Shown: positions 21,167 through 32,136 of the stretch, one piece after another | Layout of the letters: every line of letters begins with the position of its first letter | Position numbering within the stretch: position 1 is the first letter of the stretch | Position numbers and translations under genes: made by a program | The notes under the pieces: model-generated | What the model was told of the DNA's origin: nothing | Databases searched by the model: none | The model's input: the letters and a program-made list of their open reading frames with translations, nothing else | Origin: Saprospiraceae bacterium | Lineage (GTDB): Bacteria > Bacteroidota > Bacteroidia > Chitinophagales > Saprospiraceae | Assembly: GCA_026993525.1 (NCBI GenBank) | Contig: JALWSS010000171.1 | Coordinates: forward strand, 11,256 to 43,391 | Reading direction: 5' to 3' | DNA: 32,136 nucleotides

Positions 21167-21180
21167 GGAATTGAGTCCCA

Positions 21181-21240
21181 TCCCGAAATTCTTCGGGATC
21201 GGGAGAGGAATCGAAGAATTGATCCCGACTTTCGTCGGGA
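21181..21240. repeat. Two TCCCGA...TCGGGA hairpins
   Basis: TCCCGAA (21181-21187) pairs with TTCGGGA (21192-21198) around a 4-nt loop. TCCCGAC (21223-21229) pairs with GTCGGGA (21234-21240) around a 4-nt loop. Each is followed by a related purine-rich tract (gaggaa...gaattga). They belong to the same hairpin family as those in the broken tRNA copies at 31647-32009. Confidence 0.85.
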
Positions 21241-21242
21241 GA

Positions 21243-21326
21243 GGAACTGAGGAATTGAAGAACTGAAGAACTGAGGAACTGAGGAACTGAGGAACTGAGG
21301 AACTGAGGAATTGAGGAACTGAGGAA
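21243..21326. repeat. Octamer tandem array (GGAACTGA), left part
   Basis: Ten consecutive 8-bp units, mostly GGAACTGA with GGAATTGA and AGAACTGA variants, from 21243 to 21322, then a partial GGAA (21323-21326). The array resumes at 21511 after a 184-bp insertion-like segment. Confidence 0.9.
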
Positions 21327-21510
21327 TGAGTGCACTGCAAAAACCCCCATTTTCGAAGGAGATCATGTTTTTGTGAGGTTTTTAATTGGTTTTTTAGGTT
21401 TTTGAGATACGTTGTTGATTGTAATTCACAAGGTTAAACATTCAATTATTGGTCAATCATTCATCAACTTTCTGTCGTAATTGGAAATACCACTTTTTGC
21501 AGTGGACTCA
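21327..21510. mobile_element. Candidate MITE-like element with 17-bp terminal inverted repeats
   Basis: TGAGTGCACTGCAAAAA (21327-21343) and TTTTTGCAGTGGACTCA (21494-21510) are inverted repeats with one mismatch, bounding 184 bp of AT-rich, non-coding DNA with several T-runs. GGAA is present immediately outside each end (21323-21326 and 21511-21514) and could be a target duplication, though the octamer array it sits in makes that match easy by chance. No transposase is present. Confidence 0.5.
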
Positions 21511-25576: not shown

Positions 25577-27280
25577 TCAGCTTGCGCAGCAGCTCAACTT
25601 CGATACGTCTTTGCCGAAGGTAATGGCCGCCAATTTAATTGATTCTCCAAGTGTCAGGTAAGGATAAAGATTGTCAGCCAGTTCCTTAACCGTGATACCA
25701 TATTTAATAGCCATACTCAATTGTTGGATGAGTTCGCCCCCTTCGGGTGCCACCACCCGGGCACCGATGAGCCGGTCGGTTTCCGGGTTGCGGATGAGCT
25801 TCACAAATCCCCTGGTATCCTGGGCAGCGATGGCACGAGGCACTTCAGTAAGCGGAAGCTTGCTCACTTCAAAAGGAATGCCCCCGGCCTCAGCCTGGGC
25901 CTCGTCAAGACCCACACCGGCTACCTGCGGGTCGGTAAACACCACCCATGGCAAAGCCCTGTAATCCACTTTGTTATCCGCACTGGTAAAAGCATTCTCA
26001 ACAGCGGTTTTGCCTTCGAGAGCGGCCGTGTAAACATAGGCCGGCGTGTTGGCGACGTCGCCGGCGGCAAAAATGTGCGGGACACTGGATTTCATCCCTT
26101 CATCCACCATGATGTGACCCCGGTCGTCAAGTTGCACACCGGTATTCCCGAGGCCCATCTCACCCGTATTCGGACGGATACCGGTGGCCACCACCACGAT
26201 ACCCGGTTCCTCGATCTGCGTCGTAGAACCGCCGGGGCATTTGCAATGGATGATGGTTTTGCCTTTGTGTTTTTCAAACTTAATGGCCCTGAAGTTGGGC
26301 AGCACTTCAATGCCTTCGCTTCGCAACTGGGTTTCAAGCACTTCGCTGATGTCAGGTGTCTGAGCGCGCAAAACCCGGTCTGTAAATTCGATGATTCGCA
26401 CCTGACTGCCCAAACGACGGTAGGCCATGGCTATTTCCAGCCCGATGTAGCCGGCACCCATAATGGTCATACTGCGGGGCTGTGCTTCCAGGTCAAACAA
26501 GGAAGCATTGGTGTAATAGCCCACTTCATCCAGCCCTTCAATGGACGGGATGTTCGTGGTGGCCCCGGTGGCAATGAGAAACTTCAACCCTTTGTAACGC
26601 ACTTTTCCATTTACAACGATGGTGTGTGCGTCCTCAAAAACAGCCCGTCCTTCCACCATTGTCAGGTAATTGAAATCGCTGACCACATCCATGTACTTCT
26701 TCTGTTGCAAGGTGGCCACGAGCTTTTTCTTGTCCTGAATAACCTGCCTGAAATCCACCTCCACACCTTTCGGTTTCACGCCGGCAAAATTGGAATGTCT
26801 GGCATGGTGAGCCGCTTCGGCAGCGCGGATGAGGTTTTTCGAAGGAACACAACCCACGTTGACACAGGTGCCGCCGAATGGCAGCCCGTCGTTGACCATG
26901 AGGGTGCCAAGACCCAGCTCTTCCGCCTTGATGGCCGCCGAGAAGGCCGCCGAGCCACCTCCGATGATGACAAGGTCAAACTGTGAAGGATGGACTTTTT
27001 CCGAAGGGGGATTTGCCCCGGATGAGCTCACCACCCTATAGTTGCCCTGGTTGATGGTTCCAACTATTGCATCTTTACTGACTTGTGAGGGATCAAAACG
27101 AAACAGACCTTTTCCTTCGGTAAATGACACGCGCTTTTCATAGATCCCTTTCATGCCTTCGAAGCGACGCTCTATGCCGGTGGCACAATGATCGCACGTC
27201 ATGCCACTGATCTCCACTTCCAAAGTTTCCAGGTCATTGGGAATGGACGCTTCTTTCTTTCCTCTTTTAAAAAAACTCAT
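25577..27280 (-). CDS. merA: Mercuric reductase MerA with N-terminal HMA domain
   Basis: This 567-residue flavoenzyme reduces Hg(II) to Hg(0) with NADPH. An N-terminal HMA domain (about 20-85) has GMTCDHC (Cys29, Cys32). The pyridine-nucleotide-disulfide reductase core has the FAD motif VIIGGGSAAF (near 105), the redox pair Cys139/Cys144 in GGTCVNVGCVPSK, an NAD(P) motif GAGYIGLEIA, and the dimerisation domain. The C-terminus ends LSCCAS, the vicinal Cys564/Cys565 pair diagnostic of MerA. The start overlaps the merP stop by ATGA. No merB lyase is present, so organomercury resistance is not indicated. Confidence 0.96.
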   Translation of the reverse strand: MSFFKRGKKEASIPNDLETLEVEISGMTCDHCATGIERRFEGMKGIYEKRVSFTEGKGLFRFDPSQVSKDAIVGTINQGNYRVVSSSGANPPSEKVHPSQFDLVIIGGGSAAFSAAIKAEELGLGTLMVNDGLPFGGTCVNVGCVPSKNLIRAAEAAHHARHSNFAGVKPKGVEVDFRQVIQDKKKLVATLQQKKYMDVVSDFNYLTMVEGRAVFEDAHTIVVNGKVRYKGLKFLIATGATTNIPSIEGLDEVGYYTNASLFDLEAQPRSMTIMGAGYIGLEIAMAYRRLGSQVRIIEFTDRVLRAQTPDISEVLETQLRSEGIEVLPNFRAIKFEKHKGKTIIHCKCPGGSTTQIEEPGIVVVATGIRPNTGEMGLGNTGVQLDDRGHIMVDEGMKSSVPHIFAAGDVANTPAYVYTAALEGKTAVENAFTSADNKVDYRALPWVVFTDPQVAGVGLDEAQAEAGGIPFEVSKLPLTEVPRAIAAQDTRGFVKLIRNPETDRLIGARVVAPEGGELIQQLSMAIKYGITVKELADNLYPYLTLGESIKLAAITFGKDVSKLSCCAS

Positions 27281-27624
27281 TGTGATCCCTTTTTGCTTTT
27301 CTGATCCCCGGTTTTCATTACCTGAGCTTTGTAGCCTGCCCCTTCAATGGTTTTGATGATCTTTTTTTCATCCAGGCGCCTGGGATCAAACTTGACTACA
27401 GCAATATCACCGGGAAATTCCACATCTTCCTCCAACACCCCATCGAGTTTTTGCAATGCTGTTGAAATGTGGTTGGCGCAGCCACCGCATGTCATGCCGG
27501 TAACTTTGAACTTCACAGTTTTAGCACTGCCGGTTTCTCCGGTAAGCTCATTGGATTTGACCTGGGCATTGGCTACAGCCCAGGTGCCCAACAGGATTGC
27601 CAGCAAGAAAAATATCCTTTTCAT
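27277..27624 (-). CDS. merP: Periplasmic MerP-like mercury-binding protein
   Basis: This 115-residue protein has a signal peptide (1-20, ending ANA) and one HMA domain (about 36-103) with the metal-binding Cys46 and Cys49 in GMTCGGC. A basic C-terminal tail (KSKKGSQ) follows. It should carry Hg(II) to the MerT-type transporter. It overlaps merA by four bases (ATGA) and follows the merTP fusion by 49 bp. Because the transporter already carries an HMA domain, this is a second mercury-binding protein in the operon. Confidence 0.9.
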   Translation of the reverse strand: MKRIFFLLAILLGTWAVANAQVKSNELTGETGSAKTVKFKVTGMTCGGCANHISTALQKLDGVLEEDVEFPGDIAVVKFDPRRLDEKKIIKTIEGAGYKAQVMKTGDQKSKKGSQ

Positions 27625-27673
27625 GACTTTAAAAGTTTAGGTTTATGCGTGCACCGCAATGGTCCACTCAGAT

Positions 27674-28294
27674 TTATTGGTTTTCCGCCAACTGATACCC
27701 CGTCACTTTGTAGCCGGTGTCATCAATAGCGGACTTGATTTCGTCAACATTGGCCCTGGTCTTGTCAAAACTGACCACGGCTTTTCCTTCCTCGTAACTT
27801 GCTTCCACGTCCACAATGCCCGGTAGCTCGTTGACGGCGTGTTTCACATGCTCTTCGCAACCGGTGCAGGTCATCCCAGACACTTCAAAGACAGCTTTTT
27901 CCACGTTGGCCTCGCTCACCATGATCACTTCCTTGTTCTCCTTCGGATAAAAAACAGAGGAGTAATGTGGAAAGGCCAGCATCAACAGGGCAAACACGGT
28001 GACAATGCCGAGGAAGGTCTTTGTTTGCATGAAAGGTGTTTTGCCCTCCTCTTCGCAATCGCAGTCCATTTTGGAGGTTTTGGGTTTCAGTTTTTGGTAC
28101 CATGCAAAGCCCAGCACTGCCAGGGTCACCCCTGCCATGTACGGTCTTGCCGGCTCCATCCACGAAAAGGTAGATGCCACGCCGCTGCTCCCGGCTATCA
28201 AAGCCAGCACCGGTGTGATACAACACAAGGAGGCAGCAATGGCGGTCAGCAATCCCGCTCCTGCCCATTTTCCGGATGAATCATTCGTTGCCAT
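27674..28294 (-). CDS. merT: MerTP fusion mercury transporter
   Basis: This 206-residue protein has a MerT-like membrane part: LTAIAASLCCITPVLAL with the Cys24-Cys25 pair in the first helix, a second helix near 53-67, a loop with CDC (Cys78, Cys80) and a third helix near 93-108. It is followed by a C-terminal HMA domain (about 131-203) with GMTCTGC (Cys143, Cys146). The fusion form is common in Bacteroidota and moves Hg(II) to the cytoplasm for MerA. The start is 2 bp from the operator at 28297-28318, so the transcript either begins almost at the ATG or comes from arsR read-through. Confidence 0.92.
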   Translation of the reverse strand: MATNDSSGKWAGAGLLTAIAASLCCITPVLALIAGSSGVASTFSWMEPARPYMAGVTLAVLGFAWYQKLKPKTSKMDCDCEEEGKTPFMQTKTFLGIVTVFALLMLAFPHYSSVFYPKENKEVIMVSEANVEKAVFEVSGMTCTGCEEHVKHAVNELPGIVDVEASYEEGKAVVSFDKTRANVDEIKSAIDDTGYKVTGYQLAENQ

Positions 28295-28296
28295 AA

Positions 28297-28318
28297 TGTT
28301 TAAGGTTTTACTTAAGTA
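28297..28318 (-). promoter_or_regulatory. Second ArsR-type operator, before merTP
   Basis: TGTTTAAG (28297-28304), 6 nt, CTTAAGTA (28311-28318). The left half is identical and the right half 6 of 8 identical to the operator before arsR. It sits between the arsR stop and the merTP start, giving the transporter its own control point. No good TAnnTTTG was found here. Confidence 0.6.
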
Positions 28319-28333
28319 ATTGGTGCAAAAAAA

Positions 28334-28741
28334 TCAACTGTTGGCCAGGGCCAGTTCACGACTCAGTGTTCTGCCATGAATGGGTATCCACTCAAAAAGT
28401 GCATTCAACAAGGGTTTGGCCGTTGCCGTAAGGCGATAGTAAATGGTCACTCCCTCAGGATTGGTAACGACCAGGTCACCTTCCCGCAGTTTTTTCAGGT
28501 GCTGCGAAACCGCCGGAACGGTCATTTCGAGGATTTCCGCCAGGTCGCAAACACAGAGCTGCTGCTCTTTGGCAAGCAGTAGCAGAATCTTCATCCTCAC
28601 TGCATTGCCGGTCAGTTTTAACGTATCGGCAAAATCGTGCAATTCAGCATTCATGTGCTGAACCTCGTTCTTGCACCTGTGAATCTGCCCTTCGTCCCGG
28701 CAGGTTCTTACACAAGTATTGTTGCGGCGTTTGCTTTTCAT
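28334..28741 (-). CDS. ArsR/SmtB-family metal-responsive repressor of the mercury operon
   Basis: This 135-residue winged-helix repressor has an N-terminal Cys-containing extension (TCVRTC and HRC: Cys10, Cys14, Cys23) and the ArsR core (about 34-125) with QLCVCDLAEIL (Cys63, Cys65), the metal-sensing alpha-3 motif, then AVSQHLKKLREGDLV recognition helix and beta wing. It probably releases DNA on binding Hg(II) or a similar thiophilic metal; a MerR-type regulator is absent. The start at 28741 is favoured because the promoter -7 element ends only 5 bp upstream, so a longer form from 28765 would begin before transcription. Confidence 0.88.
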   Translation of the reverse strand: MKSKRRNNTCVRTCRDEGQIHRCKNEVQHMNAELHDFADTLKLTGNAVRMKILLLLAKEQQLCVCDLAEILEMTVPAVSQHLKKLREGDLVVTNPEGVTIYYRLTATAKPLLNALFEWIPIHGRTLSRELALANS

Positions 28742-28746
28742 AAGGC

Positions 28747-28787
28747 CAAAGGTAGGTATTGCCATTGTTTAAGCAAATCCTTAAACA
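28747..28787 (-). promoter_or_regulatory. arsR promoter with operator over the -33 element
   Basis: Minus strand: TTTG (28777-28774), a 19-nt spacer, then TACCTTTG (28754-28747). A perfect 8-bp inverted repeat TGTTTAAG (28766-28773) / CTTAAACA (28780-28787) has the -33 TTTG in its 6-nt centre, so a bound repressor would block it. Transcription would begin at or next to the ATG at 28741, giving a leaderless or nearly leaderless message. Confidence 0.75.
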
Positions 28788-30456: not shown

Positions 30457-31443
30457 TTATGCAGACTCTTCCTCAACTTCTTCATCCTCTGGTACGGTGT
30501 CGTAAACACCCATGGAACTGTATTTGTTGATGCGGTTCATCACCAGTTCATCCGCCGGTATGGGTGTGAGGGTGCCAAGTGTTTTCACGATGTGGTTCTT
30601 CAAAATTTCGGCCATGGCCTCCGGATCAGAGTGTGCCCCTCCCAGCGGCTCTTTGATGATGCCATCGATCAGCCCGAAAGAGAGCATGTCCCTGGCGGTC
30701 AGTTTCAGCGCCTCAGCCGCTTTTTCCTTGTAATCCCAGCTGCGCCACAGAATGGAAGAGCAGGATTCCGGAGAGATCACCGAATACCAGGTGTTTTCCA
30801 GCATGTACACCTTGTCGCCCAGACCGATTCCGATGGCTCCACCCGAAGCTCCCTCACCAATCACCACACACACGATGGGCACTTTGAGTTGTGCCATCTC
30901 GAAAAGATTGCGGGCAATGGCCTCGGCCTGCCCCCTCTCTTCCGCCTCGATACCGGGATAAGCACCCGGCGTGTCAATCAAAGTGACCACCGGGAATCCG
31001 AAGCGCTCTGCCAGCTTCATCAATCGCAGCGCCTTGCGGTAACCTTCCGGGTTGGCCATGCCGAAGTTGCGGTACTGGCGGGTCTTGGTATTGGTGCCCT
31101 TCTGGTGTCCCATGATCACGATGGTCTGCCCTTCAAAAGTGGCCAGCCCCCCCACGATGGCCTTGTCATCGCCGTAGTGCCGGTCGCCAAAGAGCTCGAC
31201 GAACCGGTCACACATTTGCTCAATGTAAAACAAGGTATATGGCCGCTCCGGGTGCCGGGAAAGTTGCACCCGTTGCCAGGCAGTAAGGTTGTTGTATATC
31301 TCTTCACGCTTCCTGCGGATCTTCTCCTCCAACTCCTCCACCATAACCGTCACGTCGAGGTCTCCTTCTTCGCCAACTTGCTTGATCTTTTCAAGTTGTT
31401 CGTACAAACTCTCGAGCGGCTTCTCAAAATCCAGGAAAACCAT
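30457..31443 (-). CDS. accA: Acetyl-CoA carboxylase carboxyltransferase subunit alpha
   Basis: This 328-residue subunit, with AccD, transfers carboxyl from biotin to acetyl-CoA in fatty-acid synthesis. Family signs are [20 protein letters not shown] at the start, the crotonase-like core with [35 protein letters not shown] and the [12 protein letters not shown] segment. The start at 31443 gives the usual length; 63 upstream codons are in frame but lie in the promoter region. The first gene of the accA-DUF6913-dapA operon. The acidic C-terminal tail ([11 protein letters not shown]) is unremarkable. Confidence 0.96.
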
Positions 31444-31634: not shown

Positions 31635-31677
31635 GGTCTGGTAGTTTCCCGAAACAAGTTCGGGATTAGAATACCTG
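31635..31677 (+). pseudogene. Broken tRNA-Asp copy with hairpin in the D loop
   Basis: GGTCTGGTAGTT and TTAGAATACCTG match the tRNA-Asp 5' half exactly, but the D-loop bases CAGTTGG are replaced by TCCCGAA-acaag-TTCGGGA (31647-31665). Sequence after CCTG is unrelated, so no anticodon or 3' half remains. Confidence 0.85.
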
Positions 31678-31690
31678 ATTTATGATAATT

Positions 31691-31757
31691 GGTCTGGTAG
31701 TTCAGTTGGTTAGAATACCTGTCCCGAGTACTCGGGAGGGTCGCAGCTTCGAACTAC
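31691..31757 (+). pseudogene. Broken tRNA-Asp copy with hairpin in the anticodon arm
   Basis: The first 31 bases (GGTCTGG ... CCTG) equal the intact tRNA. The anticodon loop and its 3' strand are replaced by the perfect palindrome TCCCGAGTACTCGGGA (31722-31737). GGGTCGC then matches, followed by a diverged T arm (AGCTTCGAACTAC) and no acceptor 3' strand. Confidence 0.88.
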
Positions 31758-31770
31758 TTCTTTGATATAC

Positions 31771-31847
31771 GGTCTGGTAGTTCAGTTGGTTAGAATACCT
31801 GCCTGTCACGCAGGGGGTCGCGGGTTCGAGTCCCGTCCAGACCGCCA
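31771..31847 (+). tRNA. tRNA-Asp (anticodon GTC)
   Basis: A full 77-base cloverleaf with encoded CCA: acceptor GGTCTGG/CCAGACC, D arm GTTC-AGTTGGTTA-GAAT (with one wobble pair), anticodon stem CCTGC/GCAGG with loop CTGTCAC (GTC at 31805-31807), variable GGGTC, T arm GCGGG-TTCGAGT-CCCGT, discriminator G and CCA. It should charge with aspartate and read GAC/GAU. It is the only intact member of a run of tRNA-Asp-derived segments. Confidence 0.97.
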
Positions 31848-31853
31848 ACTTTA

Positions 31854-31888
31854 AGCCCATCAGGAACATTGCCTGGTGGGCTTTTTTT
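31854..31888 (+). terminator. Terminator after tRNA-Asp, with an alternative pairing arm
   Basis: AGCCCATCAGG (31854-31864) pairs with CCTGGTGGGCT (31872-31882) with one G-T pair, followed by a run of seven T. A second perfect complement of the left arm, CTGATGGGCTT, lies at 31904-31914. The whole structure is repeated 174 bp downstream. Confidence 0.85.
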
Positions 31889-31937
31889 GTATCTACTGAT
31901 TTTCTGATGGGCTTATCATTCTGATTCTAATCGAAGC

Positions 31938-32021
31938 GGTAAGGTTCAGTTGGTTAGAATACCTGTCCCGAGTACTCGGGAGGGTCGCGGGTTTCCCGAG
32001 TACTCGGGATCCAGACCGCCA
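31938..32021 (+). pseudogene. Broken tRNA-Asp copy with hairpins in anticodon arm and T loop
   Basis: GGTA...GTTCAGTTGGTTAGAATACCTG is tRNA-like but has lost the 5' acceptor strand. TCCCGAGTACTCGGGA replaces the anticodon loop region (31966-31981) and a second identical copy replaces T-loop bases CGAGTCCCG (31994-32009). TCCAGACCGCCA and the terminator follow intact. Confidence 0.88.
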
Positions 32022-32111
32022 ACTTTAAGCCCATCAGGAACATTGCCTGGTGGGCTTTTTTTGTATCTACTGATTTTCTGATGGGCTTATCATTCTGATT
32101 CTAATCGAAGC

Positions 32112-32136
32112 GGTAAGGTTCAGTTGGTTAGAATAC
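32112..32136 (+). pseudogene. Start of a further broken tRNA-Asp copy, cut by window end
   Basis: GGTAAGGTTCAGTTGGTTAG and onward repeats the start of the copy at 31938, offset 174 bp. The remainder is outside the window. Confidence 0.7.

Follow-up and report, generated by a model that had tools for sequence, protein, structure and literature searches.

The last 500 bases of the 32,136-nucleotide stretch of Saprospiraceae DNA analysed here (the window) contain one intact tRNA-Asp gene, three broken copies of it and the first part of another, and palindromic hairpins occupy the places of tRNA loops and arms in the broken copies. We consider it fairly probable that the window captures a portion of an array derived from a free-standing, homing-type GIY-YIG element which copies itself into tRNA genes and is accompanied by a cognate hairpin, the element in this case being one that targets tRNA-Asp. 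Mobility, cleavage and hairpin recognition are properties that we infer for these nucleases.

The features of the array are collected in the table below. In remnant 1, the left junction lies after base 12 and the right junction at base 20 of the tRNA, and the gap is filled by a 19-nt hairpin (TCCCGAAACAAGTTCGGGA), followed by TTAGAATACCTG. Remnant 2 shows the palindrome TCCCGAGTACTCGGGA where the anticodon arm belongs, and the same palindrome occurs twice in remnant 3, once for the anticodon arm and once for the T loop, the latter with its left junction at 56 and its right junction at 66. Sequence comparison showed that the tRNA bases flanking the hairpins are exact in the remnants. A sequence-only reading of this DNA had described at least four broken tRNA-Asp copies around one intact gene, with D loop, anticodon arm and T loop all replaced by palindromes across the set; its coordinates and sequences proved correct, counting three copies and a cut fourth, and the replacement of all three parts was confirmed in the sequence. 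The frequency of the palindrome in the window is far beyond chance, as illustrated by three matches to TCCCGANNNNTCGGGA with at most one mismatch versus 0.04 expected. When the folding of single-stranded DNA was compared with that of shuffled sequences, remnant 3 proved much more stable than the shuffles (z value of -5.6, with its two palindromes pairing with each other), and values of -2.9, -1.6 and -1.8 were obtained for remnant 1, remnant 2 and the intact tRNA-Asp gene, respectively. No intron was detected in the window by Rfam at the gathering threshold, and the intact tRNA-Asp is uninterrupted.

Table. Features of the tRNA-Asp array at the end of the window and of its conserved neighbour (window coordinates; base numbers refer to the tRNA).
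Feature	Position	Strand	Description
accA	30457..31443	-	Pfam PF03255; synteny; outside the element
tRNA-Asp remnant 1	31635..31677	+	bases 1-12, hairpin 31647-31665, bases 20-31; D-loop region replaced
tRNA-Asp remnant 2	31691..31757	+	bases 1-31 exact, hairpin 31722-31737, GGGTCGC, degraded 3' part
Intact tRNA-Asp (GTC)	31771..31847	+	ARAGORN; Rfam RF00005, 69.6 bits; 77 nt
Terminator-like hairpin and T run, 3' of intact tRNA	31853..31888	+	stem 31853-31883, 12 pairs; consensus match
tRNA-Asp remnant 3	31944..32021	+	bases 10-31, hairpin 31966-31981, GGGTCGCGGGTT, hairpin 31994-32009, 3' acceptor strand TCCAGACCGCCA
Second copy of terminator-like hairpin, 3' of remnant 3	32027..32062	+	within a 127-nt direct repeat, 100% (family D1)
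Start of remnant 4	32118..32136	+	bases 10-28; ends at contig end

Two further parts of the window were recorded on the side. Two TCCCGA hairpins, one of them nested (TCCCGAAATTCTTCGGGATCGGGA), followed by a run of short tandem repeats of the GAGGAACT type, lie at 21170-21340 between two reading frames. The minus strand of 25577-28765 codes for an HMA and pyridine-nucleotide oxidoreductase protein resembling mercuric reductase, an HMA protein, a MerT-like transporter with an HMA domain and an ArsR-type regulator, all assigned via Pfam.

The window ends with the end of contig C171. Contig C80, read backwards, opens with TTGGTTAGAATAC and shares a 13-nt overlap and an identical block of 115 nt with this contig end; on contig C80, tRNA-Asp remnants lie on both sides of a small GIY-YIG gene. 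The array of the window most likely continues into contig C80 and thereby to the nuclease gene. Searching the genome with PF01541 revealed eight places, consisting of five small stand-alone genes and three larger reading frames. All five small genes are located in arrays of tRNA remnants (three of tRNA-Arg, one of tRNA-Asp and one of fMet), and one of the three tRNA-Arg nuclease genes contains an internal stop. At the tRNA-Arg locus of contig C229 (L062), three tandem nuclease copies are arranged around the tRNA, the first with a stop and the other two in near-identical units. The larger GIY-YIG frames on contigs C48 and C70 are free of tRNA pieces within 1.5 kb on each side. A weak GIY-YIG match in a 494-aa frame on contig C145 (L046) lies about 1.2 kb from tRNA-Pro remnants and was counted neither way, and the notion that the larger GIY-YIG genes are all remote from tRNA arrays was dropped on its account. 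This weak match is also the only GIY-YIG match on the contigs with tRNA-Pro, tRNA-Met and tRNA-Cys remnants, and no small nuclease gene was found in the assembled surroundings of these remnants. The idea of a palindromic element lodging in tRNA stem-loops, as put forward from the sequence, was right about the palindromes in the loops but missed the GIY-YIG nuclease gene belonging to the arrays.

Three of the nuclease proteins were tested and consist of GIY-YIG domains of 80-87 residues, which matched PF01541 with E-values of 9e-20, 1e-18 and 1e-19. The best structure matches were the UPF0213 proteins 1zg2 (6.8e-14) and 1ywl (5.3e-12), with SLX1 coming next. The residues Y10, Y21, G23, R31, H35 and E67, whose Tyr, Tyr, Gly, Arg, His and Glu positions we take to be those of the active site, are invariant in all rows of the clade that have a letter there (85-87 of 87), and they are likewise invariant on the side of the nuclease tree that is not associated with tRNA genes.

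In the relatives, accA is the conserved neighbour which marks the tRNA-Asp site, and it adjoins tRNA-Asp across the genus. We searched 13 other genomes of the same genus, two of which gave no full accA match, and compared 11 loci. A single clean tRNA-Asp is present at the accA site in five of them (L206, L207, L210, L214 and L215) and remnants are present in another five (L208, L209, L211, L212 and L213), while the contig is too short to judge in one (L205). Of the loci with remnants, L208 has an open nuclease gene, and L211 has a nuclease copy with a frame disrupted close to the start. Both empty and occupied alleles of this site are present in the genus, and the arrays come and go between its species.

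A profile of three of the nuclease proteins was applied to 84,980 species genomes, yielding 172 confirmed matches, the best 80 of which were kept and represent 79 distinct loci. Among these best 79 of 172, which were retrieved by a query taken from tRNA-associated genes, 60 have an intact tRNA no more than 200 bp away and 63 have one within 1 kb, compared to 2.2% and 5.3% of random windows in the same loci. In the same best 79 of 172, the nearest tRNA lies on the nuclease strand in 62 of the 63 loci, and a piece of the same tRNA is found nearby in 51 of them; where the tRNA is upstream, a far-side piece of it is present in 23/34 and reaches the 3' end in 18/23, and where it is downstream, a far-side piece is present in 21/29 and begins at base 1-2 in 19/21. 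An intact tRNA with a far-side piece is the anatomy expected of a unit that enters a tRNA gene and restores it, and the nuclease gene would accordingly sit at its target gene, the tRNA. The best 79 of 172 also include 16 loci with no tRNA within 1 kb, nine of which end no more than 600 bp from a contig end. Host phyla include Bacteroidota, Nitrospirota, Planctomycetota, Chloroflexota, Myxococcota, Acidobacteriota and many candidate phyla. A phage search with protein P0003 and a plasmid search with protein P0001 produced only matches of less than 60% identity, in 22 and 9 records, respectively.

Because a tRNA was found within 1 kb in only 8 of the 29 loci of a PF01541 sample of the phylum (29 among the best 30 loci), the tRNA association belongs to this clade and not to GIY-YIG proteins at large; an association of GIY-YIG genes in general with tRNA genes is thereby ruled out. 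One of the other 21 sample loci (L181) shows remnants only, and the remaining 20 are without trace and all belong to the other clade. Rfam at the gathering threshold detected no tRNA in 20 of those 21 loci (all but L196). The nuclease tree contains 107 of 111 rows, four having been dropped for internal stops or shortness, and is of the 'quick' kind, based on 85 columns and with 48 of its 104 inner branches drawn open. One of its branches (SH-aLRT 99) separates 20 rows without tRNA trace from 87 rows which include all 71 tRNA-associated rows, defined by a tRNA within 500 bp. The tRNA isotype changes 32 times on the tree versus at least 48 times in 300 shuffles, and tRNA association changes 16 times versus at least 25 times in shuffles. 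The subclades of the nuclease keep largely to one kind of tRNA.

Hairpins and broken tRNA genes are also found elsewhere in the present genome. The exact 16-mer TCCCGAGTACTCGGGA occurs in eight copies, and all eight are located in remnants of tRNA-Asp or tRNA-Pro. Because the general pattern of TCCCGA, 2-10 nt and TCGGGA is matched 628 times in the genome versus three times for a reversed-pattern control, this type of hairpin is also a dispersed repeat; other types are represented by 24 TCCGCC-type and 54 CCTGCC-type hairpins. Regarding a scatter of palindromes without bias to tRNA loops, which the sequence-only reading had set against its own proposal, the outcome is divided, since hairpins of the general type are indeed scattered, but the exact 16-mer keeps to tRNA remnants here. 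Among 296 genomes of the phylum, the exact 16-mer is present in four, namely the present one and three others, and none of these three has it beside tRNA pieces, which rules it out as a general marker of tRNA arrays. A link between the genome-wide number of TCCCGA hairpins and the nuclease class was likewise rejected, as the counts of 22 genomes overlap by eye.

We scanned 31 stretches around the tRNA genes of the genome for broken copies. Hairpins stand for one strand of the D stem in a tRNA-Met copy, for one strand of the T stem in a tRNA-Cys copy, for the anticodon arm in a tRNA-Pro copy and for the T loop in an fMet copy, and tRNA-Arg copies have hairpins inserted into D and T loops. The remaining stretches contain intact tRNA genes and at most short weak matches, except for a 58-base piece of tRNA-His which is cut by the start of contig C145. 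The tRNA-Pro remnants on contigs C134 and C145 (L004 and L005) bear the tRNA-Asp hairpin followed by GGGTCGC, which is tRNA-Asp sequence, where tRNA-Pro itself has GGGCCGC; by their sequence, they look as if the hairpin and the adjoining bases had moved jointly from an Asp remnant. ARAGORN reports two hairpin-bearing remnants as tRNA genes, L064 as undetermined and L067 as a second tRNA-Cys, so annotation pipelines may list such remnants as extra tRNAs.

Examination of 116 loci revealed 63 insertions in tRNA pieces; they come from 44 loci and reduce to 57 sites in 39 genomes. The search needed a net gain of at least 6 nt, and the anticodon-arm swaps of the window and of the tRNA-Pro array (L066 and L075) stand outside the 63. 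Inverted-repeat arms of at least 5 nt were present at 47 of the 57 sites, compared to a mean of 10.9 and a maximum of 21 in 1000 shuffled runs, and arms of at least 6 nt at 33 of the 57 (shuffled mean 3.0, maximum 9). In 43 of the 47 palindromic sites, the replaced stretch touches one of the three loops (D, anticodon or T; null 34.1, P about 2e-4), and a stricter count of left junctions located at a loop gave 30 of 47 (null 20.7, P 0.005), which makes the bias towards loops statistically significant, though of moderate size. Two sites are hit repeatedly by pure insertions, namely GTTC|GA in the T loop (L062, L093, L095, L106, L116 and L153, plus L099, whose palindrome is weak) and TA|GA, with which the D loop ends (L062, L093, L094 and L102). 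Because of this recurrence, the loop bias may reflect conserved sequence as much as structure. The earlier proposal of an element which targets tRNA stem-loops is therefore retained as far as the touching of loops is concerned, but the sites look at least as much chosen by sequence as by structure. Because the boundaries of the remnants vary, there is no single cut site. Two simpler rules were discarded: destruction of a cut site by the hairpin is not universal, as some pieces retain an intact T loop (e.g., L171 and L157), and mimicry of an RNA arm by the hairpin is at odds with the loss of one stem strand in some copies.

The kind of hairpin follows the lineage of the nuclease. We defined three classes by our own regular expressions (TCCCG..CGGGA, TCCGC..GCGGA and CCYGC..GCRGG), which allowed us to classify 26 of 40 loci with insertions, leaving 14 loci without a classifiable hairpin outside the tree test. 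On the nuclease tree, the class of these 26 loci changes twice, which is the minimum for three classes, compared to a mean of 12.5 and a minimum of 8 changes in 1000 shuffles. For Bacteroidota alone (19 rows), two class changes were obtained versus at least three in the shuffles (0 of 2000), and a wider set of 43 loci, whose labels were transferred by hand, showed six class changes versus at least 13 in shuffles. The three arrays in the present genome carry three different hairpin classes, each in accordance with the class of the same nuclease clade elsewhere. The host background does not explain the match of classes, because the present genome contains all three together with the matching clades, and neither does the kind of tRNA, because tRNA-Val is found with a different class in each of two clades, and a single class is common to Arg, Leu and Asn. 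As a separate observation, the 15-mer CCCGATTGCATCGGG adjoins tRNA-Ala nucleases at L126, L131 and L133, which are two Chloroflexota records and one Nitrospirae record.

Other explanations were weighed against this evidence. We judge it unlikely that ordinary dispersed palindromes of the REP kind landed by chance in redundant tRNA copies, with the GIY-YIG genes being uninvolved and located near tRNA genes only because integration there is common. Spare tRNA copies would be free to decay, and the hairpins of all three types counted in the genome agree with such a process, but the hairpins recur at certain positions and are bordered by exact tRNA bases, and their class tracks the nuclease tree, within Bacteroidota alone as well as in the three matching arrays of a single genome. 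Functional RNAs, which would act as decoys resembling tRNA or as signals in the processing of the nuclease mRNA and would be kept since the hairpin replaces a cloverleaf arm, appear distinctly improbable. Such a function would fit the copies of L209 and L212, which retain the acceptor and the T arm and have only the anticodon arm or the D loop replaced, and two tRNA-Pro remnants which still match the tRNA model (29.5 and 25 bits); it is at odds with the loss of one stem strand elsewhere (D stem in L064, T stem in L067), with the many remnants that are only 5' or 3' pieces and with the five genomes of the genus lacking remnants at this site.

Palindromic repeats beside Y1 enzymes are a known REP system, as far as the cited part of the source goes (PMC3733652), and the genome contains two Y1_Tnp genes, so one may think of hairpins mobilised by IS200/IS605-type Y1 (RAYT) transposases with the GIY-YIG gene as a secondary feature. 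We rate this as very improbable: neither Y1_Tnp gene is flanked by any of the three hairpin classes within 1.5 kb on each side, apart from a single loose match about 1 kb away, and the same part of the source depicts the CGTC repeat class as seemingly devoid of a dedicated transposase (PMC3733652). An artefact of assembly at the contig end is barely credible. No exact 16-mer in the genome is more than about 540 bases away from a contig end (C80, C134, C145 and C171), but short reads yield contig ends at repeats anyway, and the arrangement is also found inside long contigs of other genomes, e.g., in L134 and L156. Because arrays recur at the same site in separately assembled genomes of the genus, an artefact is strongly disfavoured.

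We therefore return to the tRNA-invading GIY-YIG element as the preferred reading, for which the following course may be envisaged. The nuclease would cut a tRNA gene at conserved loops, the proposed sites being GTTC|GA (T loop), TA|GA (D-loop end) and the anticodon arm. Repair of the break would copy in a unit consisting of the nuclease gene and part of the tRNA, and this copying would restore a working tRNA and leave a broken copy behind. Such a course, with cutting of tRNA genes at conserved loops and copying of the unit during repair, is probable for the chromosomal enzymes by analogy with the phage enzyme SegB. The hairpin would be the recognition element of the nuclease itself or an element mobilised by it, with the TCCCGAGTRCTCGGGA hairpin as the candidate partner of the Asp-clade nuclease, and it may lodge at the cut sites of spare copies, by which the presumed cut site would be destroyed in several pieces. 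Most simply, the hairpin is either the cognate site of the enzyme or its passenger.

Several known systems are similar in parts. The proteins described here resemble the site-specific single-strand GIY-YIG nucleases (Ssn) in their UPF0213-type sequence, with 1zg2 and 1ywl as best matches, UPF0213 presumably denoting the Ssn type of GIY-YIG protein. Ssn enzymes reportedly recognise a cognate repeat with many copies in the genome (NTS in Neisseria), and the study on them is said to describe no tRNA-gene arrays. A possible counterpart here is a hairpin whose class tracks the nuclease clade and which the nuclease may recognise.

Of the published systems considered here, the nearest is SegB, a free-standing GIY-YIG homing endonuclease of phage T6/T4, which has in common with the present elements a small free-standing GIY-YIG nuclease beside tRNA genes. 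According to the part of the source used here, SegB cuts inside tRNA genes, prefers the T-loop sequence read backwards (RAWTSGAAC) and is required if a tRNA segment is to be amplified in tandem (PMC13096335). Against PHROG, only weak homing-endonuclease matches were obtained, for 2 of 3 proteins. SegB, as portrayed in the same part of the source, was studied in phages, whereas the present elements reside in bacterial chromosomes of many phyla, and they differ from it by clades that keep largely to one kind of tRNA, by far-side fragments of the same tRNA and by clade-specific hairpins in these fragments.

REP/RAYT systems share the short dispersed palindromes, sometimes located beside an enzyme thought to move them, in the portion of the paper referred to (PMC3733652). 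Unlike these, the present hairpins are located inside tRNA pieces and track a GIY-YIG nuclease, not a Y1 transposase. The CGTC-REPs, including dRS3 of Neisseria, appear in that portion as a class of palindromes seemingly without dedicated transposase (PMC3733652), and a GIY-YIG nuclease of the present kind would be a candidate enzyme for them. Group I introns of tRNA genes with homing endonucleases likewise combine a homing nuclease with a tRNA gene as a target, as described in the cited part of the source (PMC3984707). In contrast to these introns, the intact tRNA is uninterrupted here, and the nuclease gene is located outside of it.

Among the matches listed from a collection of 5.39 million open papers, we recognised neither an account of tRNA-invading GIY-YIG elements in bacterial chromosomes nor one of hairpin-bearing tRNA remnants beside such nucleases. 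The element is filed here with the free-standing homing nucleases at tRNA genes, and it may be a kind of its own. We tentatively put forward, as a possibility we hold at somewhat less than even, that it represents an undescribed bacterial mobile element, i.e., a tRNA-gene invader made up of a single-domain GIY-YIG nuclease and its own cognate DNA hairpin, which would restore the tRNA it enters, leave hairpin-scarred pieces behind, have diversified into tRNA-specific lineages in more than a dozen phyla and act as source or mover of dispersed palindromes without a known enzyme. The arrays account for some assembly breaks and for spurious tRNA calls, such as extra Cys and undetermined tRNAs. If the proposal is true, it would place the UPF0213-type GIY-YIG proteins in a biological context, supply an enzyme candidate for those dispersed palindromic repeats which have none, and carry homing at tRNA genes beyond phages into the chromosomes of bacteria from many phyla.
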